Source: Sphaerisporangium rubeum
Lineage (GTDB): Bacteria > Actinomycetota > Actinomycetes > Streptosporangiales > Streptosporangiaceae
DNA length: 64,000 bases
NCBI RefSeq assembly: GCF_014207705.1
Contig: NZ_JACHIU010000001.1
Location: 6,626,501-6,690,500 of the forward strand
Direction of reading: 5' to 3'
Under the pieces are notes generated by a model. It was given only the letters and a program-made list of their open reading frames with translations, was not told the DNA's origin and made no database searches. Below are positions 6,191-64,000 of the stretch, piece by piece (position 1 is the stretch's first letter; each line of letters opens with the position of its first letter). The translations under genes were made by a program, and so were the position numbers.

Positions 6191-6789
6191 CGGCGTCCGG
6201 CTGCGGCGTAACGTGGCCTGCTTGACGATGGCGGGCCTCCCATCGGGTTCGGGGACGAAGCCGTGATCGTATCCGTCGTCAAGGGATACGCACGTGGACT
6301 TCCGGCGGTTCGCCCGATCCGTAGTTTAGGGAAGCATCCATGACCATGTCGGCATATTGGGATGTTTCATCCCGTGCGCCGCCGGCTCTTCCCGTCCCGG
6401 CGTCTGGACGGCTCGCTCATGACGCCGGAGACAGCGAGAAATCGCCTCAAGCCAGGCAGTATTTTGTCAGATTTGTCCGATTAGTGTTTTATGTGAACGA
6501 TGCGAGAGGAACGGTCGGGTCGCCATCCTCCCGCAGGTGAGGGCCCGGTCGACCTGCAGCCGGACCTACGGGAAATCCGTTATAGCGGCCTGCGTTACGT
6601 GCCTGTTCGACCCTCCTGCGCCATGTTATGGTGCGGAGGCAGCCAGGACATCTGCCATATGCGCCGCCAAATTCTGCATTTCTCGCCACTCATGCCGATT
6701 CGCATGAGGGTGCGGCATGGCTCGACCCACCACCATGACCTCTCCGGGCTGCCCGAAAACGCGGCGGCCGTCAGTTTTGGAGCGTGACA
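6191..6789. other. Long intergenic region, no supported gene
   Basis: About 600 bases between divergent genes. Base composition is distinctly less GC-rich than the flanks, mainly around 6300-6360, 6450-6500 and 6570-6680. Short open frames exist, for example 6340-6540, but codon use and the lack of a ribosome site argue against them. The region probably holds the ArsR promoter and operator, and a promoter for the gene at 6790; TATGGT near 6624 is a possible -10 box. Confidence 0.5.
6268..6290. promoter_or_regulatory. Inverted repeat upstream of the ArsR gene
   Basis: Perfect 7-bp arms CGTATCC and GGATACG separated by 9 bases, 78 bases upstream of the ArsR start. The size suits a winged-helix dimer, so autoregulation is a reasonable inference. 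Confidence 0.45.
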
Positions 6790-7863
6790 ATGCCGAACGG
6801 CATGATCCACACCTCCGAGGACGCCTTACGCGACCTCAAGACCAAGCAGACGTACACCATCCCGTCCAAGCTCAGGGGACGTCCGGGGGGCACCCTCGTG
6901 ACGTACACGCTCGCCCCGGACAAGACGGTCGACAGCATCACCCCCGGCCTCGTCGGGAAGCTCGACGGCGACGACGCGGTCGACGACGCGACCGAGCAGC
7001 GCGTGCCTCTCGGTGCCGCGCTGCGGAACGTCTACCCTGACGGCATCCAGGTCCGCCTCTACGGCACCAGCACCAAGATCATCGCGTTGGACCCGCTTGG
7101 TCGCGTCATCGGCGGCAAGGACCGCCGGATCGACCTCGTGGACCCGTCGCACGCCGCCCCCGACAACCTGTCGGAGCTCGGCGTCTCGGTCGAACAGGAC
7201 TCCGACGACAAGTCCGACGACGACCCGGATCAGGTGTACTACTACGTCGGAAAGAAATCGGCCTGGACCACACGGATCCAGACCTGCACCGCGCTCGCCA
7301 TGTGGAGCCGCTCGGCCGGACTCTCGTATCTGTCCCACGCCGACGCCGCCACACCCTCAGAGACGATCGCGAAGGAGATGACACGGTTCTTCGAGGCCGC
7401 GGCGGCCACCGATGCGGACCTCTCGGCGAGCGGCGAGCTCAGCGTCTTCCTCTTCACCGCATCGGACACGCCGGCCAGCAGGTTCAGCTCGCTGGAAACG
7501 ACCTTTCTCGCACTGAACCACATCAAGGGAGAATACGCGCGCTACTTCTTCGAGCGGGCCAAGTGCCATATCGTCGGCCACAGAGACGCCGTCGTGGTCT
7601 CGAGCACCGCACGACCCAAGGTTCTCCGTCCCTACGCCGACTACGTGCCGTACCTGCTGACCCGTTACGCCGAGCGCGGCGAGGAACACATCCGCGGCAT
7701 CCTCATCGACGTCCTCAGGACCGCCGAACCGAACCGCGACTTCGAGCCCCAGGCGTACAAAGCCGCCAAGAAAGCCGGTACCGAGCACAGAGATCTGCAG
7801 CGGCTTCTGTACACCGTGGCCGGCTACAGCGAACAGGAGGCGGCGGAGCGCTGGGATCTGTGA
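6790..7863 (+). CDS. Unknown protein with a Cys-His motif like N-terminal Asn amidohydrolase (NTAN1)
   Basis: A 357-residue soluble protein without a family I can name with confidence. Residues 1-160 form an unassigned, partly acidic region (DSDDKSDDDPD near 140-150). The second half contains QTCTALAMWSR, then GLSYLSHADAATPSETI: Cys166, His183 and Asp185 are spaced as in eukaryotic NTAN1, where T-C-H-I and L-x-H-x-D build the active site. HIVGHRDAVVVSSTARPKV further on could be the second half of such a fold. The ATG at 6790 has TTTGGAG eight bases upstream; a GTG at 6784 is the alternative. If the resemblance holds, the likely chemistry is side-chain amide hydrolysis. It stands alone after an AT-richer spacer, which may indicate horizontal origin. 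Confidence 0.6.
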   Translation: MPNGMIHTSEDALRDLKTKQTYTIPSKLRGRPGGTLVTYTLAPDKTVDSITPGLVGKLDGDDAVDDATEQRVPLGAALRNVYPDGIQVRLYGTSTKIIALDPLGRVIGGKDRRIDLVDPSHAAPDNLSELGVSVEQDSDDKSDDDPDQVYYYVGKKSAWTTRIQTCTALAMWSRSAGLSYLSHADAATPSETIAKEMTRFFEAAAATDADLSASGELSVFLFTASDTPASRFSSLETTFLALNHIKGEYARYFFERAKCHIVGHRDAVVVSSTARPKVLRPYADYVPYLLTRYAERGEEHIRGILIDVLRTAEPNRDFEPQAYKAAKKAGTEHRDLQRLLYTVAGYSEQEAAERWDL

Positions 7864-7873
7864 CCAGGAGACC

Positions 7874-8326
7874 CTAGACCGGCTCCCCGAGAATCAACCG
7901 CCGATGAAGGTCCTGCAGCCCCTCAGGCAGCTCCTCCGGAGCGAACCACCCGGCCTCCAGGACCTCCATCGGATCGATCCGCAACGTGCCACCCACGTAC
8001 CGTGCCTCGTACGCGATCTCCAGCCGCATCCGGTACCCGCTCCGCAGATACGCCGGCCGCCCCACCTTCACGTCGAGCCCCGTCTCCTCCCGCACCTCCC
8101 GGACGACGGTCTCCTCGAAAGTCTCCCCGCGCTTGGCGTACCCCCCGGGCAACCCCCATGGCCGCGCCACCGGCCACAACCGATGCTTCAGCAGCAGCAC
8201 GTTGCCGTCCGCGTCCCGCACGACCCCCGTGACCCCGACGACGAACTTGGCGTGCCGCAGGTAGACGACCCGCCACTGCAGCGGCCCGGCCATCGAGTGC
8301 CAGACCCGTGCGACGAGCCGCTTCAC
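7874..8326 (-). CDS. Nudix hydrolase
   Basis: A 150-residue Nudix pyrophosphohydrolase. The Nudix box is complete: GGYAKRGETFEETVVREV followed by REETGL, with the metal-binding REXXEE core. An upstream VGVTGVVRDADGNVLLLKH strand matches MutT-like enzymes. The start is GTG at 8324-8326, which has GGGAGG at ideal spacing on this strand; internal ATGs are less suitable. The substrate (oxidised nucleotides, nucleoside diphosphate-X or a capped RNA) cannot be told. It is divergent from the MpaB-type oxygenase gene. Confidence 0.93.
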   Translation of the reverse strand: MKRLVARVWHSMAGPLQWRVVYLRHAKFVVGVTGVVRDADGNVLLLKHRLWPVARPWGLPGGYAKRGETFEETVVREVREETGLDVKVGRPAYLRSGYRMRLEIAYEARYVGGTLRIDPMEVLEAGWFAPEELPEGLQDLHRRLILGEPV

Positions 8327-8383
8327 GTGGTGCCTCCCGCGAGGTGTAGGAATGCGCCGTAAGAATGTTTCCGGGGTGGGACT

Positions 8384-9277
8384 ATGACAGATCTCGAGAA
8401 TGTCACGGTGCAGGCGCCTTCGTCGGTGAGTTGGGTGGTGCATGTCTCCCGGGCCATGTGGGTGGGGGGTGTGCGGGGGCTGATGTTGCAGGCGTTGCAT
8501 CCTTCGGCCATGCGGGGGGTGTGGCAGAACTCGGACTTCCGGGAGGATCCGGTCGGGAGGCTGCTGCGGACGGCCGACTTCGTGGGGAGGGTGACGTTCG
8601 GGAGTCCTGCCGAGGCGGAGGCGGTCGGGGAGCGGGTGCGGCGGGTGCATCGGGGGTTGCGGGTGCGGGAGCCCTCCGGGGTGGTGGGGCGGGTGGACGA
8701 GCCGGAGCTGCTGCTCTGGGTGCACTGCGCGGAGGTGGCGTCCTACCTGGAGACGGTGGTGCGCGCTGGGGTGCGGCTGAGCAGGGAGCAGGCCGATCGT
8801 TATCTGCTGGAGCAGCGGCGGAGCGCGGCTTACGTGGGGTTGAGGGAGGAGGACGTGCCGGGATCTCTCGGGGAGATGCGGGACTACTTCCGGCGGACGC
8901 GGCGGCGGCTCGATGTGACGCCTGAGGCGGCGGCCGCGGTGCGGTTCCTGGTCTCGCCGCGCGTGCCGGAGAGGTTGCGCCTGCTGCGGGTGGCGAAACC
9001 GTTGTACTGGCCGTTCGGAGCGTTGTGTTACTACACGTTGCCGGGGTGGGCCCGGCGGATGTACGGGTTCCTGCCGGAGGTGCCGCAGGCGGGGGTCACG
9101 GTCGCGCTGCGGGGGTTCAGGCAGGCGCTCGAGACGGTGCCTGAGCCACTGTACGAGAAGGTGTTCATGCCGACGACCCGCGAGATGCTCGACGGGGCTC
9201 GAGAACGGCTGGCGGCGGCGGGGTACGACGTGAGCGCGGGGCTCAGGGGGCTGCGGGACCCGCGCCGCCGGCTCTGA
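8384..9277 (+). CDS. MpaB-type oxygenase (DUF2236)
   Basis: A 297-residue member of the DUF2236/MpaB family, related to haem-dependent oxygenases such as rubber oxygenase and the mycophenolate enzyme MpaB. The marks are MLQALHPSAMRGVWQNSDFR near residues 33-53, RVRRVHRGLRVREPSG, and LLLWVHCAEVASYLE, which hold the conserved His residues. There is no signal peptide. The gene has a higher share of GTG/GGG triplets than its neighbours. Its 3' end overlaps the opposing RecB-like gene by 35 bases. The substrate is unknown. Confidence 0.85.
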   Translation: MTDLENVTVQAPSSVSWVVHVSRAMWVGGVRGLMLQALHPSAMRGVWQNSDFREDPVGRLLRTADFVGRVTFGSPAEAEAVGERVRRVHRGLRVREPSGVVGRVDEPELLLWVHCAEVASYLETVVRAGVRLSREQADRYLLEQRRSAAYVGLREEDVPGSLGEMRDYFRRTRRRLDVTPEAAAAVRFLVSPRVPERLRLLRVAKPLYWPFGALCYYTLPGWARRMYGFLPEVPQAGVTVALRGFRQALETVPEPLYEKVFMPTTREMLDGARERLAAAGYDVSAGLRGLRDPRRRL

Positions 9278-10151
9278 TCTCGCCGTCCTCGCTCAGGTCG
9301 GCCAACCCCTCCCAGGGCTGGCGTGCCGGCCCGGCGGCCCGGCCTTCGGAGCAGTGGCGGCGGAAGTCGCACCAGGAGCAGATGGGGCCCGGACGTGCGG
9401 GGAAGCGGTCGTCGAGCGGAGGGGCCGCGGAGTCCTCGGCGCGGAGGGAGCGGTAGTCCTCGTCTGCCTTGGCGGCCTCCTCGGCGATGTCCTCGGCGCG
9501 GGACAGGTGGCGGCGCAGGGTGTCGGGGGTGTGGGTCCAGGTGGCCACCGAGGCGGTCGGCAGGTGGTGTAACTCGACCCGGTGGCAGGAGCGGTGCAGG
9601 ACCCGGGACGCGCAGACGGCGTAGACGGCCAGCGCCAGGGAGGTGCGTGCGTCGTCCTCGGTGAGGGGACGGCGGCCGGTCTTGTAGTCGACGATGACGA
9701 GCTCGTCGCCGCGCCGGTCGATGCGGTCGACCCGGCCGGAGACGGCGATCACGGACGTGCGGGTCGCCACGGTGCGCTCGACGCCGACCGGCTCGTCGGA
9801 CGGGTCCAGGGTGCCGGTGTACGACATCACCATGTCGCGCGCGCGGTCACGCCACTCGGTGGACTGCTCCTGGTCGCGGAAGCCGTCGGTGAGCCAGCCG
9901 CGGGTCAGCAGGACGCCGGCCACGGCGGGGGTGCGGCGCTCGTACGGCTCGCGCCACCACGCGGCGAGAGCGTTGTGCACCGACGCGCCGACGCTGTTGT
10001 GGGCCCACGGCGGGCCCTTCTGCGGCGCGGGCCGGTCGAGGTAGGTGTAGCGGTAACGCCTCGGGCAGTCCAGCCAGGTGTTCAGCCGGGACGGAGTGCA
10101 CGAGTAGAGCCGCCTCGGCATGCCTTCGAGTTCGAGACCGAGTTGCCCCAC
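9243..10151 (-). CDS. RecB-like PD-(D/E)XK nuclease with Fe-S staple
   Basis: A 302-residue single-domain nuclease of the RecB/Cas4/AddB type. The catalytic core is visible as SGRVDRIDRRGDELVIVDYK (D and then D-x-K), continuing TGRRPLT, with a following QL-like helix. An N-terminal Cys (WLDCPRRYRYTY) and a C-terminal CSWCDFRRHC cluster make the four-cysteine [4Fe-4S] staple known from AddB and Cas4. The start is GTG at 10149-10151. No cas genes are near, so this is the widespread actinobacterial stand-alone form, presumably in DNA repair. It overlaps the oxygenase gene tail-to-tail. Confidence 0.88.
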   Translation of the reverse strand: MGQLGLELEGMPRRLYSCTPSRLNTWLDCPRRYRYTYLDRPAPQKGPPWAHNSVGASVHNALAAWWREPYERRTPAVAGVLLTRGWLTDGFRDQEQSTEWRDRARDMVMSYTGTLDPSDEPVGVERTVATRTSVIAVSGRVDRIDRRGDELVIVDYKTGRRPLTEDDARTSLALAVYAVCASRVLHRSCHRVELHHLPTASVATWTHTPDTLRRHLSRAEDIAEEAAKADEDYRSLRAEDSAAPPLDDRFPARPGPICSWCDFRRHCSEGRAAGPARQPWEGLADLSEDGEIRAGGAGPAAP

Positions 10152-59065: not shown

Positions 59066-59132
59066 CGGCGCCGACGATCGTGCGGTTTGCCAGACTATGT
59101 TCTGGTCCTGAAATCACCGGAGAGGGAACGGG

Positions 59133-61433
59133 ATGAACTTCTGCCTGAGTGATCTCGTGCCTCCGCTTCGCTGGAGTGACGCGGCGGGGTTCTCGCAGTT
59201 GCGCGACCTGCCGGGACTGCCTGACGCCTGGTGGCGTTCGCTGCCGGTCACCCAGGTGTTCGCCGTGATCGGGCCGGAGGCGCTCGGTGAACTGCTGACG
59301 GAGCTGGCGCTGGAGCACTGGCCGGCCGCCGCCGTGGGGGACGTGCTGCCCGCGCTGCACGTCATGGACCCCGAGGAGGCCGACGAGCCGCAGGTGTCCA
59401 TCGCGCTGGACCGCGTGGGCTCCTGGCACGGTCTGCTCGCGCTGACCGGCAGGGAGCTGACCGACCAGCCGTTCATCCGGCCCCGTCCGGTGCTCGCCGC
59501 GTTGTTCACCGCGGTGTTCACCCGCATGACCGCCGGCGCGAAGACACCCGCGGAGAAGGCCCCCGCGGAGAACGCGCAGGAGGAGCGGGCCCCCGCCGCG
59601 CTGCGGGCCCCGGCCCCCGCCGAGCGTGAGCCGCTGCCGGTGCGCCGTCCCGCGCTGCCGAAACGGCAGTCGCGCCAGAGCCAGGCCATCGACCCCGGCG
59701 ACCCGCTCGGCCTGGCCGCCGCGCGCATGGCCGCCGCCGCGCTGGAGCAGCGGGTCTTCGGCGACGCCGTCGCCGGCACCCCCGCGACGTCCCGCCCCTC
59801 GATGTTCACTCCTCCCCCCCGTCCCGAGCGTCCCGCCAGGTACGAGCCGTCCCCGACCCCGCCGGCGCCGAACGCCGTCCCCTTCCCGCCGCAGAGCCCG
59901 GTGTCGAGCCCGGTGCCGAACGGCATGCCGGCGCCGCTCGCCGTGCCGCTCCCCGTGCCGATCCCGGCCCCGGTCCCCACCTCGGAACCGGCCCCCGTCC
60001 CGGCGCAGGGTGAGCACGACCCCGACCCCCTCGGCACCGATCGCACGCACCGGGAGCCGTCCCCCGATCCACGGGACGAGCCGGCCCCCGGCCCGCTCGG
60101 CCCCGACACCCCGCGCGCCGCCGACGAGCGGCCCGGCCAGGAGTCCGCCGGGGAGCCCGAGCGCACGCAACCCGGCGACTCCACGGACGCCGTACCGGCC
60201 GACCACCCGGCCGACCACCTGGCCGACACGTCCGACACGGCGGACGCGGCCGGCGCGGAGCCGGCCGGCGGGACCGGGGCCGACGGCGAGGAACGTGACA
60301 TGGTCGCGATCATCGACGCCGCTTTCGCCGACCTGGACGACAAGACGTGGACGGTGGCGCAGAACCACGTCTTCACCGACGCTCCCGCCGCCCCCGAGGA
60401 GCTCGCCAAGCTGTTCGCCGTCCCCGCCGAGGAGATCGTGGCGCTCGAGCACGAGCTGCGCCACCGCCTCGCCGAATGGCTGGAGAGCCCGGACGCCGCC
60501 CCCTACGCGCAGTACCTGGAGAAGCTGCCCGGCACCCTCGGCGTCGCCGCACCGAGGTCGCGCCTCATCGCCGCGGCCCCCTGGCACACACGTGAGCTGC
60601 GTTCGCTCGACGTGCCGGCGTGGCAGTTCGTGCTGAGCACCCTGCCGGGCTACACCGTGCAGGAAGGCTGGCTGGTGTCGGAGGACGTCAACGACCTGCG
60701 CGAACGCACCTGCGCACTGATCTTGGACGCCGACCGTCCGCCGACGGTGGCCCGCGCGCTGGAACTGGTGACCACGCTCGGCATCCACCCCGAGGTCGCC
60801 AAGGAGTGGCTGGAGAGCGTGCCGCAGCTGCGCATCCAGAGCCCGAAACCCGTGCCGGGCCAGGAGGGTGAACGGCAGAGGCAGCAGGAGGTCGCGCACT
60901 CCGCGCCGGACGGCCGCCTGAAGGACGTGTCGATGACCCGCAGGTGCTTCAGGCACCCCGACGGCCTGTGGTGGCTACGGGTCGACGTGGCACCCGAGCA
61001 GATCAACGGCGGAGAGTGCCCGCTGCCGAGCGGCTTCGCGGCCTACCTCGGCATGGCCCCCGGCGAGAGCCGCACGGTGGGGAGCGCGGCAGGCGAGGTC
61101 ACGCTGAGCTGGCAGACCCGTCCGGTCATCGAGTCGTTCGGCGGCCTCCTCACCGACATGGAGGCCACGCCGGGGGCCCATCTGTTCCTCACGGTCGCCG
61201 AGGACGACGAGGTGCTGCGCACCCGCCTGGTCCCGGCGGCGTCCGGCGACTCCGACAAGGGGGCGATGGCGCTGCGGCTCGCGGGCCACACCTCGGGGGG
61301 CACCGAGTCGCTGGAGGAGACGATCCGCGTGCTCGCCACCCGCATCGGCATGACCGGCCCGGTCGGCCTGCCGGACCTGATGAACCGGCTACGTGAACGC
61401 GGGGACCGCGATCTGCTGTCCCTGATGGTCTGA
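59133..61433 (+). CDS. Unknown three-domain protein, first paralog flanking a UvrD-like helicase
   Basis: A 766-residue soluble protein. Residues 1-135 form a domain starting MNFCLSDLVPPLRW and containing LPDAWWRSLP. Residues 137-388 are a Pro/Ala/Glu-rich linker. From 389 comes DMVAIIDAAFADLDDKTW, then APAAPEELAKLFAVPAEEIV, which looks like a sigma-region-4-type helix-turn-helix. A second helical part (about 520-570) and a beta-rich C-terminal domain (CPLPSGFAAYLGMAPGESRT) follow. The gene at 63579 is a paralog that shares domain 1 and the start of the 389 region but lacks the long linker. The helicase gene follows after 11 bases with AGGAG, so they form an operon. Function unknown. ATG 59133 has GGAGAGGGA upstream. 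Confidence 0.8.
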   Translation: MNFCLSDLVPPLRWSDAAGFSQLRDLPGLPDAWWRSLPVTQVFAVIGPEALGELLTELALEHWPAAAVGDVLPALHVMDPEEADEPQVSIALDRVGSWHGLLALTGRELTDQPFIRPRPVLAALFTAVFTRMTAGAKTPAEKAPAENAQEERAPAALRAPAPAEREPLPVRRPALPKRQSRQSQAIDPGDPLGLAAARMAAAALEQRVFGDAVAGTPATSRPSMFTPPPRPERPARYEPSPTPPAPNAVPFPPQSPVSSPVPNGMPAPLAVPLPVPIPAPVPTSEPAPVPAQGEHDPDPLGTDRTHREPSPDPRDEPAPGPLGPDTPRAADERPGQESAGEPERTQPGDSTDAVPADHPADHLADTSDTADAAGAEPAGGTGADGEERDMVAIIDAAFADLDDKTWTVAQNHVFTDAPAAPEELAKLFAVPAEEIVALEHELRHRLAEWLESPDAAPYAQYLEKLPGTLGVAAPRSRLIAAAPWHTRELRSLDVPAWQFVLSTLPGYTVQEGWLVSEDVNDLRERTCALILDADRPPTVARALELVTTLGIHPEVAKEWLESVPQLRIQSPKPVPGQEGERQRQQEVAHSAPDGRLKDVSMTRRCFRHPDGLWWLRVDVAPEQINGGECPLPSGFAAYLGMAPGESRTVGSAAGEVTLSWQTRPVIESFGGLLTDMEATPGAHLFLTVAEDDEVLRTRLVPAASGDSDKGAMALRLAGHTSGGTESLEETIRVLATRIGMTGPVGLPDLMNRLRERGDRDLLSLMV

Positions 61434-61444
61434 CAGGAGCCCCG

Positions 61445-63511
61445 GTGCCCCGGCTCGCCATCGCCCCAGAGGTCCACAGCGACCTCGGCGCGCTGGCATC
61501 CCCGGCACGCGAGGAGGCGGTGGTGTCGCTGCGGCGGTTCCTGCGCGGCGCCACCTCCGCGCCGCATCCCGAGCGGGTGCGCAACACGCGTGACCCGCGC
61601 GTCGCGACGATGCGGCTGACCGACCGGCACCGCGGCGTGGTGGTGCGGCAGCGCGACGTGTACTGGATGCTGACCGTCCAGCCGGACGCCGAGGCGTGGT
61701 CGTACGCGCAGCGGCACAGGTTCGCGGTCAACGCCGCCGCCGGGATGGCGGAGATCTGGGACGCCGCGGCGCTGGAGTCGGTGGAGCCCGCGCTGCGCCG
61801 CGCCGCCGGGTCGGCGGCCCGGCGGCTGTTCGCGCACGTCTGCGACACCGACCTGCTCGGGCTCGGCATCGACACGTGGCTGCTGCCGCTGGTGCGGCTC
61901 ATGGCGAGCGAGACGGCCCTCGACGCGGTGGAGCCGCTGATCCCCGAGAGCCAGTTCGCACCGTTGTCGGTGCTCGCCGCCGGCGGGTCGATCGCCGAGG
62001 CGTGGCGCGCGCTCGACGCGTGCGCGGCCGTACCGGCGGGGCCGATCGACGTGAGCGACCTCGGGGCCGCGCTCGACCGCACGCCGAGCCGCGCGGTGTT
62101 CGTCGCGGACGCCGAGGAGCTCGACCACCTGCTGGACCGGCCGCAGTGGTGCGGCTTCCCCTACGCGGTCCAGTACCGCATCGCCTACCACGACGTCCAC
62201 GACGGCCCGGTGCTCGTGACCGGCGGCGCCGGCACCGGCAAGACCGTGCTCGCGCTGCACCGCGCGGCGCATCTGGCGCGCACCGGCGGCGGCCGGGTGC
62301 TCGTGGTGACGTTCTCCCAGGCCACCGCCGCCGACCTCACCGCCAAGCTGGACCTGCTCGTGGACGACACGCGGGTGCGCGACCGCATCGAGGTCGGGAA
62401 CGTCGAACGTCTCGCGCACCGCGTCGTCGCCGAGGCCGAGGGCCGGCCCCCGCTGCTGGTCGGCCCCCCCGACCTCGCCTCGCTGTGGCAGGAGGCCGCC
62501 GAGCTGTACGGCACGACGCACAGCCCCGCGTTCCTGCTGCGCGAGTGGGAACAGGTGATCCTCGCGCAGAACCTGTGCACCCTGCAGGAGTACCTGTCGG
62601 CGGCCCGTCCCGGCCGCGGCGTGGACCTCGACCGCGGCGAGCGAGCCGAGGTGTGGCGTGCCATCGAGCACGTCACGGGACGGCTGCGTGAGACCGGCAG
62701 GCGCACCCTGCTGCAACTCGCGACACGCGCGAGCACGCTGCTCGGCCGCACCACCGGCGACCTGCTCGACGACGCGCCAGGCGGCGAGCCGTACCGGCAC
62801 ATCGTGGTCGACGAGGCGCAGGACCTGCACCCGGCGCAGTGGCGGCTGCTGCGGGCCGCCGTGCCGGCGGGCCCGGACGATCTGTTCATCGTCGGCGACC
62901 CCCATCAGCGGGTCTTCGACACCCGGGTCGCGCTCAGCAGCCTCGGGGTGAAGGCCGAGACCTACCGGCTCACCGTGTCGCGCCGCCTGCCGCGGGAGAT
63001 CCTCACCTGGGCCGTGCGGCTGCGCGGCGGCGGTCCGGTGGACGGGCTGGTGGACGGCGTCACCGAGCTCGCGGGGTTCCGCGCCGGACAGGAGGGCCCG
63101 CGTCCCGTCGTCCGGGAGTACGTCTCGCCGCAGGCGGAGCTCGCCGGGCTGGTCACGCAGGTCGGGGAGTGGCTGGCCGAGGGGGTGCCGGCGAGGGCCG
63201 TGGCCGTCGCGGCCCGCTCGGCCGGCCTCGTCAGGGACGTCAAGGCGGCGCTGCGCGAAGCGGGCCTCGCGGTGCGCGCCACCCCGCTGCACGGGCTCAA
63301 GGGCCTGGAGTTCCGCCGGGTCGCACTGATCGGCGTCGCGGAAGGCGTCGTCCCCGCGCCTGGTTCCCTCACGCCGGCCGAGGAGGACCCGACCGCCAGG
63401 GCACACGATCTGCAACGGGAACGGGGGCTTCTGTACATGGCCTGCACCCGGGCCACCGAACGCCTTTACGTGTCCTATTCCGGGCGAGCAAGTCCATTTC
63501 TACCGCCCTGA
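61445..63511 (+). CDS. UvrD-like SF1 helicase with RelE-like N-terminal domain
   Basis: A 688-residue protein. Residues 1-110 (MPRLAIAPEVHSDLGALASP ... VATMRLTDRHRGVVVRQRDV ... YWMLTVQPDAEAWSYAQRHR) have the helix-then-beta pattern of RelE/ParE toxin folds. The SF1A helicase follows: Walker A GGAGTGKT (260-267), VDEAQD (455-460), FIVGDPHQRVF, HGLKGLEFRRVALIG and LYMACTRATERLYVSY (motif VI). Motif Ia reads VVTFSQATAADL. GTG 61445 has AGGAG right after the preceding stop. Two paralogous genes flank it. DNA repair, plasmid control or phage defence are possible roles; none is shown. Confidence 0.87.
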   Translation: MPRLAIAPEVHSDLGALASPAREEAVVSLRRFLRGATSAPHPERVRNTRDPRVATMRLTDRHRGVVVRQRDVYWMLTVQPDAEAWSYAQRHRFAVNAAAGMAEIWDAAALESVEPALRRAAGSAARRLFAHVCDTDLLGLGIDTWLLPLVRLMASETALDAVEPLIPESQFAPLSVLAAGGSIAEAWRALDACAAVPAGPIDVSDLGAALDRTPSRAVFVADAEELDHLLDRPQWCGFPYAVQYRIAYHDVHDGPVLVTGGAGTGKTVLALHRAAHLARTGGGRVLVVTFSQATAADLTAKLDLLVDDTRVRDRIEVGNVERLAHRVVAEAEGRPPLLVGPPDLASLWQEAAELYGTTHSPAFLLREWEQVILAQNLCTLQEYLSAARPGRGVDLDRGERAEVWRAIEHVTGRLRETGRRTLLQLATRASTLLGRTTGDLLDDAPGGEPYRHIVVDEAQDLHPAQWRLLRAAVPAGPDDLFIVGDPHQRVFDTRVALSSLGVKAETYRLTVSRRLPREILTWAVRLRGGGPVDGLVDGVTELAGFRAGQEGPRPVVREYVSPQAELAGLVTQVGEWLAEGVPARAVAVAARSAGLVRDVKAALREAGLAVRATPLHGLKGLEFRRVALIGVAEGVVPAPGSLTPAEEDPTARAHDLQRERGLLYMACTRATERLYVSYSGRASPFLPP

Positions 63512-63578
63512 CCCAATACCCTGAACCCGGCGGAACCCGTCCGATGCCACCACATGCCCCATGCCGGTTTGGACCTTC

Positions 63579-64000
63579 ATGAATCTGAGCCTTAGCGACA
63601 TCGTGCCTCCCCTGCGCTGGACCCCGCCCGGCCAGGTCGAGCCGATCGCGAGCGATCCTCGTCTGCCGGACGCGTGGTGGCAGGCGCTGCCGCTCGACCG
63701 TGCGTGCCTGATCGCGGGGACCGCTCAGGTGGCCGCACGGCTGGCCGACCTCACCATGGCCTGCTGGGGACACCTGCCGCTCGGCGACATCCTGCCGCCG
63801 CTCAGGATGATCGATCCCAAGCGGTCCGCGCGGACCCCCGACGCCAGGGACACGGTGCGCACGGTCTTCACCGACGTGCTGGAACGGCTGGTCGCCTCCG
63901 GCAGCCACGAGTCGATCGCCGCGCCGGCCGCACAGGTGCGGCAGGACCGGCCGATCCCCGAGCTGATCGACGACATCTTCTCGGCGCTCGACGACCGGCA
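63579..64000 (+). CDS. Second paralog flanking the helicase (partial)
   Basis: The first 140 residues of a gene that continues beyond the window. It starts MNLSLSDIVPPLRW, almost the same as the protein at 59133, and has LPDAWWQALPLD and GDILPPLRMIDPKRS in matching positions. The stretch PIPELIDDIFSALDDR begins at residue 125 and corresponds to DMVAIIDAAFADLDDK at residue 389 of the first paralog, so the long Pro-rich linker is missing here. The ATG at 63579 is 67 bases after the helicase stop. No clear ribosome site is seen, so it may have its own promoter. Confidence 0.82.
   Translation, partial: MNLSLSDIVPPLRWTPPGQVEPIASDPRLPDAWWQALPLDRACLIAGTAQVAARLADLTMACWGHLPLGDILPPLRMIDPKRSARTPDARDTVRTVFTDVLERLVASGSHESIAAPAAQVRQDRPIPELIDDIFSALDDR

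Follow-up and report, generated by a model that had tools for sequence, protein, structure and literature searches.

ArmD of ARMADA type II, a system described as immune, is a UvrD/GajB-like helicase with an N-terminal RelE-like domain, and in E. coli the replacement K266A in ArmD abolished protection by ARMADA II while D454N caused only a partial loss (PMC12458937). The same fusion was found in this study within a 64,000-nucleotide stretch of Sphaerisporangium rubeum (hereafter the window; positions 6626501-6690500 of a 7.5-Mb single-contig genome), in which a helicase gene, herewith designated H, lies between two genes, A and B, on the same strand, the window edge falling inside B (Table 1). 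In a literature search of open-licence papers, no published description of this A-H-B trio was found. The reading we favour, held tentatively and with a little less than even confidence, is that A-H-B is a fixed operon of many Streptosporangiaceae genera, in which a defence-type RelE-UvrD helicase has been recruited as a chromosomal DNA motor placed by A and B. For the comparison below we examined the best 80 of 202 relatives of B, which are the 80 loci counted below.

Over almost the whole length, H shares about 30% identity with a gene of an E. coli IncY plasmid, which was taken for ArmD because a gene for a 2113-aa helicase stands before it (the names ArmC and ArmD are assigned by likeness for the genes of all relatives). 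Unlike ArmD, however, H of the trio is flanked by A and B, occupies one fixed place and carries an acidic instead of a basic residue at position 81. The ArmC-like (YprA-like) gene of ARMADA type II was not found in the 80 loci at E 1e-8, and neither was any GmrSD-, DrmA- or DrmB-like open reading frame (ArmA, BrxHII-like, and ArmB, PglX-like, were not searched); ArmC-like genes adjoin other helicase copies, in L098-L100. Among the nearer relatives (44-46% identity to trio H) are the RelE-UvrD helicases of actinobacteria linked to GmrSD_N (DUF262), such as L055 and L058, where the helicase stands beside one GmrSD_N gene; unlike trio H, these are found without A and B and at other genomic places, and they keep the basic residue. 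As to Gabija, its OLD-type nuclease GajA is not beside H, the direct neighbours being A and B in all 80 loci. HelD/HelR and UvrD/PcrA are superfamily 1 (SF1) helicases linked to RNA polymerase. H has the SF1A motor fold in common with them, but stays far under the NCBIfam cut-offs (PcrA, 78 of 911 bits; HelR, 55.6 of 750 bits; others of HelD/HelR, lower) and differs in its RelE-like domain and its A/B partners.

The helicase H and its RelE-like domain

H matches the Pfam models UvrD-helicase (E 1e-19) and UvrD_C, and the predicted structure of the window copy, with a mean predicted local distance difference test score (pLDDT) of 85 and a predicted template modelling score (pTM) of 0.83, matches UvrD, PcrA and Rep over almost the entire length (best E 3e-18). 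Residues 1-100 of the model follow the order of RelE toxins, strand-helix-helix-four strands-helix. With a profile built from 16 members of this domain, the toxin RelE3 was the sole match in the Protein Data Bank at E<1 (E 0.023, profile positions 3-88, nearly the full RelE3 length), and 4 of the 16 members matched Pfam ParE_like (best E 0.0035). The N-terminal part of H, for which the likeness is weak by sequence alone, fits a RelE-like fold in the predicted structure, in agreement with the RelE-UvrD identity proposed by the sequence-only reading, that is, the earlier interpretation of the window made without database searches.

For the analysis of single residues, 81 trio helicases (the 80 loci and the window) were aligned with 17 other relatives of H. 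Lys266, Asp456, Asp460, Gln488, Arg514, Lys619 and Arg669 are kept in all the members of both groups, while motif IV reads SYR in 51, SHR in 26 and SRR in 4 of the trio helicases, and NYR in 10, SYR in 6 and GYR in 1 of the others. Position 81 is aligned with an Arg of RelE3 and, by this alignment and by what is known of RelE, would be the catalytic basic residue of the active site. It is basic in all 16 other relatives that have a residue there (His 12, Arg 4), but in none of the 81 trio members (Asp 73, Glu 6, Asn 1, Gly 1), and position 85 is Tyr in 13 of the 16 others against Trp in 72 of the 81. Since the helicase residues are conserved and position 81 is replaced, the motor is kept in the trio and the putative toxin site is altered.

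In a midpoint-rooted helicase tree of 36 rows, the 19 trio helicases form one clade (100/100) within a wider clade (100/99) that includes L092, L094, L095 and the GmrSD-linked L055 and L058, and that is separate from the ARMADA-type helicases. H is shorter than 640 aa in all 29 Nonomuraea loci (among L139-L188; for example L147 7130-8950), against none of the 51 others. The Nonomuraea proteins are without 76 of the window residues 341-425, between motifs Ia and II, a segment that is probably the 1B part; by alignment this is a genus-wide natural shortening of an SF1A helicase. H of one further genome (G013) is an open 610-aa form resembling that of Nonomuraea.

The paralogs A and B and their linkage to H

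The near-identical starts first noticed on the two genes flanking the helicase proved to be part of a longer likeness, since A is matched by B in three stretches (E 1e-38, 3e-36 and 4e-14); by sequence, A and B are paralogs whose similarity reaches beyond their starts. B matches Pfam Sigma70_r4 above the cut-off (E 1e-7) and SigA by profile comparison (E 3e-11), no Pfam match to sigma region 2 was obtained in B, and the 19 NCBIfam sigma models that match B do so below cut-off and all within residues 106-186. The sigma-factor likeness of B, judged from these matches, is confined to region 4, and B stays far under the sigma-family cut-offs in NCBIfam. The sigma-type recognition helix is invariant in B and absent from A, the RERIRQ string being found in none of 80 A orthologs, and no match was obtained for A in Pfam, NCBIfam or PADLOC. 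The helix has decayed in A, with a recognisable helix-turn-helix (HTH) kept only in B, so that the supposed pair of HTH-bearing proteins stands for B but not for A; likewise, placement in a known housekeeping family extends no further than sigma region 4 in B. At its C-terminus B probably carries a B3-like domain. Full-length B gave no match in PADLOC.

MzaA, the sigma-like protein of the MZA anti-phage system, shares with B the region-4 HTH and nothing beyond (NCBIfam, residues 118-175, E 5e-9, 35.4 of 800 bits, below cut-off). A wider likeness was found for a 'Sigma factor-like helix-turn-helix DNA-binding protein' of a Microbacterium plasmid (L102) and its Arthrobacter relative (L103), of which the region-4 HTH, middle and C-terminal parts align with B at 29-30% identity. 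Unlike B, these two have an N-terminus like the C-terminal domain of RNA polymerase alpha (alpha-CTD; below cut-off in L102, above it in L103) in place of the LSD part, and no adjacent RelE-UvrD gene. On the 17.5-kb Microbacterium plasmid, the helicase and DUF4011 genes round the alpha-CTD plus sigma-region-4 gene (578-2999 and 6501-10093) look split into several frames. The top Foldseek match of the B model was UFL1/DDRGK1 (E 2e-3); kinship with these was rejected, and the match is interpreted as tandem winged helices in the model. A phage origin of B was also rejected, because no match was found in 50,697 phage records and the viral contigs gave only five short matches to the sigma HTH.

The 80 loci all belong to Streptosporangiaceae, in 15 named genera and one further, and in every one the three genes stand as A-H-B in one order and on one strand. 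The surroundings are constant: aminotransferase-ferredoxin-solute-binding protein-methyltransferase-A-H-B-cysS. The spacing is -41 to 16 bases between A and H (median 4) and 47 to 71 bases between H and B (median 49), the methyltransferase gene ends 65-158 bases before A in 77 loci, and a cysS-like gene follows B after 9-1968 bases in 77 loci; A reaches a contig end in three (L117, L174 and L181). Among 60 whole genomes, full-length B (at least 74% identity) is present in 18 and H (at least 60%) in the same 18, one H being in two pieces, while the other 42 have neither full-length B nor a matching H; within the Streptosporangiaceae of this sample the trio is present in 18 of 37 genomes. Because the same 18 genomes hold B and H and all 80 loci hold A-H-B, the three genes are supported as one linked unit, as the sequence-only reading had supposed. 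A, H and B are under purifying selection: over 12 chosen close pairs, the median ratio of nonsynonymous to synonymous substitution (dN/dS) was lowest of the three in B (0.11), followed by H (0.17) and A (0.31). The neighbouring genes gave medians of 0.08 (methyltransferase), 0.15 (DapC-type), 0.25 (solute-binding protein) and 0.26 (cysS-like).

Strict linkage does not hold for the wider A/B family, and these cases weigh against a motor that always accompanies A and B. The S. rubeum genome itself carries a solo A/B-family copy (L046) without helicase; G035 has a solo A-like gene (L050) without H or B, near cysS-like and (by eye) PIG-L-type genes; and in three other genera solo genes of the family adjoin SUF iron-sulfur genes (L047 8325-10505, L048 7285-9393 and L049 7964-10420; the SufB-type neighbour was checked by Pfam in L047 only), which makes the SUF neighbourhood a second recurrent place of this protein family. 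Paralogs without the helicase thus exist among the wider solo copies, but among the full-length B orthologs seen, none lacks it. Elsewhere in the phylum a profile match was obtained in 10 of 345 other genomes. In the five of these ten loci that were examined, B-like genes were called in four (none in L196), a RelE-UvrD gene was called in none (L197 is a 3.6-kb contig), and L195 holds a partial ArmC-like gene.

Two non-coding elements travel with the A-H-B operon. Element 1 has the consensus GATTTGCCAGACTATGGTCTG with the dyad CAGAC-TATG-GTCTG. Of 77 loci (the three with A at a contig end are left out), 75 have it upstream of A at 4 mismatches or fewer and 71 at 2 or fewer; among 800 random stretches taken from these loci, 3 reached the former threshold. 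The site upstream of A is the only one in the S. rubeum genome at up to 3 mismatches of the 22-base pattern. Among the 60 genomes, the element occurs in 17 of the 18 with the trio (missing in G022), once each and always upstream of A, and in 1 of the 42 without it (G027, a 3-mismatch match), the reversed control pattern being matched once. Element 2, between H and B, has the family consensus CTGAACTGCGGATA ... TTGCCGGTTGGACC. In the H-B gap plus 60 bases of B, 78 of the 80 loci have its half CTGAACTGCGGA (up to 1 mismatch) and 79 its half TTGCCGGTTGGAC (up to 2), and each half was matched in 3 of 800 random stretches; the window copy is eroded, with 5 and 4 mismatches in its halves. A search of the 60 genomes at strict spacing recovered element 2 in just 5, since Sphaerisporangium has a longer spacing. 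The string TTGCC(A/G)G is common to the consensus of both elements, and B might, as a guess from sequence, bind there. A known RNA element was rejected, as Rfam gave no match over L008 1300-8200, and a consensus scan for a sigma-70 promoter upstream of A gave none.

Possible functions of the trio

If the helicase has been recruited as a chromosomal motor, B would bind DNA, perhaps at a -35-like site, through its sigma-region-4-like, winged-helix and B3-like parts and would thereby position H, and it might in addition contact the beta flap of RNA polymerase. A, with the outer parts but without the sigma helix, would act as a partner or as a regulator. In H, the RelE-like part would now be a docking surface and no longer an RNase, and the protein might travel on DNA, clearing RNA polymerase or other bound protein, or opening DNA for repair. 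Element 1 is probably the site through which the operon is controlled. A more specific proposal, which we regard as rather doubtful, is that two adaptors derived from sigma region 4 direct this helicase of antiphage origin, its toxin-type active site lost, to promoters or RNA polymerase, as a domesticated motor that serves genome upkeep linked to transcription and has a dedicated operator of its own. If the helicase was indeed recruited, the trio would plainly exemplify an immune gene put to a new cellular use, with a fixed place, the toxin-like key residue changed in every member seen, and pairing with sigma-like paralogs. Comparison of the trio with the defence members would give a direct test of the role of the RelE-like part of ArmD, and the trio lets one test sigma region 4 as an adaptor outside a sigma factor.

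A strong rival, which we nevertheless consider somewhat unlikely, is that the trio acts against viruses or plasmids as a chromosomal system kept by vertical descent. A and B would then detect foreign DNA or transcription, and H would act as the effector motor, like ArmD in ARMADA II. The following observations favour it and weigh against a recruited motor. An H-like stretch occurs in 54 plasmid records; in Escherichia, Pseudanabaena and Haematobacter the plasmid relative adjoins a gene for a DEAD/DEAH helicase of about 2100 aa (the one that was scanned has the MrfA Zn-binding domain), and in Tsukamurella it comes after a Zn-binding-domain gene. Relatives in actinomycetes stand beside a GmrSD_N gene (L055, L056 and L058), beside DrmB and DrmA (L096), or about 5 kb or less from DrmA (L057) or DrmB (L056), and in L097-L100, all from genomes of the same genus, they adjoin a large DruE/ArmC-like helicase, the ArmC-like genes of L097 and L098 scoring best against DruE in the 2023 release of PADLOC, which is older than the ARMADA paper. 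No such GmrSD_N, DrmA/DrmB or DruE/ArmC-like partner was seen in L092-L095. In addition, H matches GajB profiles, the HTH of B resembles that of MzaA to the extent given above, DUF4011 and UvrD/PDDEXK pieces occur near the B-like plasmid protein of L102 and PLD-helicase and AAA_23 genes near that of L103, and protection by ARMADA II was lost with K266A, and lost in part with D454N, in ArmD (PMC12458937). Against an immune role stand the one fixed place in all 80 loci, where the partner genes searched for are missing, the failure of A and B to match PADLOC and of B to match the phage records, and the replacement of the basic residue of the RelE-like domain. The settings in which relatives of H are found agree with the role in phage defence raised by the sequence-only reading, but the unit itself stands at one syntenic place and not in a defence island; a mobile defence island was rejected for the trio because of the constant synteny.

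It is improbable, in our estimate, that A and B regulate transcription with H merely co-transcribed, the three having separate tasks. The solo A/B relatives without helicase agree with such a division, as would element 2 if it is B's own promoter, but full-length B is always accompanied by H (18 of 18 genomes) and the A-H junction is tight. Least probable, and very unlikely, is a toxin-antitoxin-like unit in which the RelE-like part of H is a toxin held by A and B, with autoregulation at element 1: it draws on the RelE-like domain and on a dyad upstream of the first gene that is unique in the genome, but the basic residue is missing in all 81 trio members, A and B match no antitoxin family in Pfam, and the operon has a single fixed place.

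Locus layout and neighbouring genes

Table 1. Features of the A-H-B locus, in window numbering
Feature	Position	Strand	Description
Element 1	59084-59105	+	Non-coding, upstream of A; dyad imperfect in the window copy
Gene A	59133-61433	+	766 aa; N-terminal LSDLVPPLRW part, long Pro/Ala-rich linker, sigma-region-4-like segment that has decayed, C-terminal part that aligns with the B3-like part of B
Gene H	61445-63511	+	688 aa; fusion of a RelE-like domain with an SF1A helicase of UvrD/PcrA type; main motif residues conserved, SRR in motif IV
RelE-like domain of H	61445-61738	+	Residues 1-98; residue 81 Asp here, basic in other members
H-B intergenic stretch with element 2	63512-63578	+	Window copy of element 2 eroded, with halves near 63521 and 63561
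Gene B	63579-64000 in the window, end at 65429 outside	+	616 aa; N-terminal LSDIVPPLRW part, sigma-region-4-like HTH, winged helices, probable B3-like domain, helical tail

The gap of 11 bases between the first paralog and the helicase, given by the sequence-only reading, was confirmed. The best start of B (MNLSLSD...) matches the called starts of the 80 orthologs, another in-frame ATG being present 18 bases upstream. Upstream of A are genes for a class I/II aminotransferase (labelled DapC-type), a ferredoxin, a solute-binding protein and a small methyltransferase. The gene downstream of B passes the NCBIfam cut-off as cysteine--tRNA ligase (406 bits against 340), and therefore no fourth member of the unit was seen, although further members had been suspected past the window edge.

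In the genomes of L098, L099 and L100, which are of the same genus, a pair of a large DruE/ArmC-like and an ArmD-like helicase occurs besides the trio, so that both helicase forms occur in one genus. Two tandem similar genes on the minus strand (L008 11116-12411 and 12562-13863) have by eye the look of secreted trypsin-type proteases, with no Pfam match for either at E 0.001. The cysS-like gene after B lies at 65572-66969 in window numbering (L008 8073-9470), and in other loci its called length ranges from 211 to 492 aa; it is possibly a decaying or re-purposed second copy.
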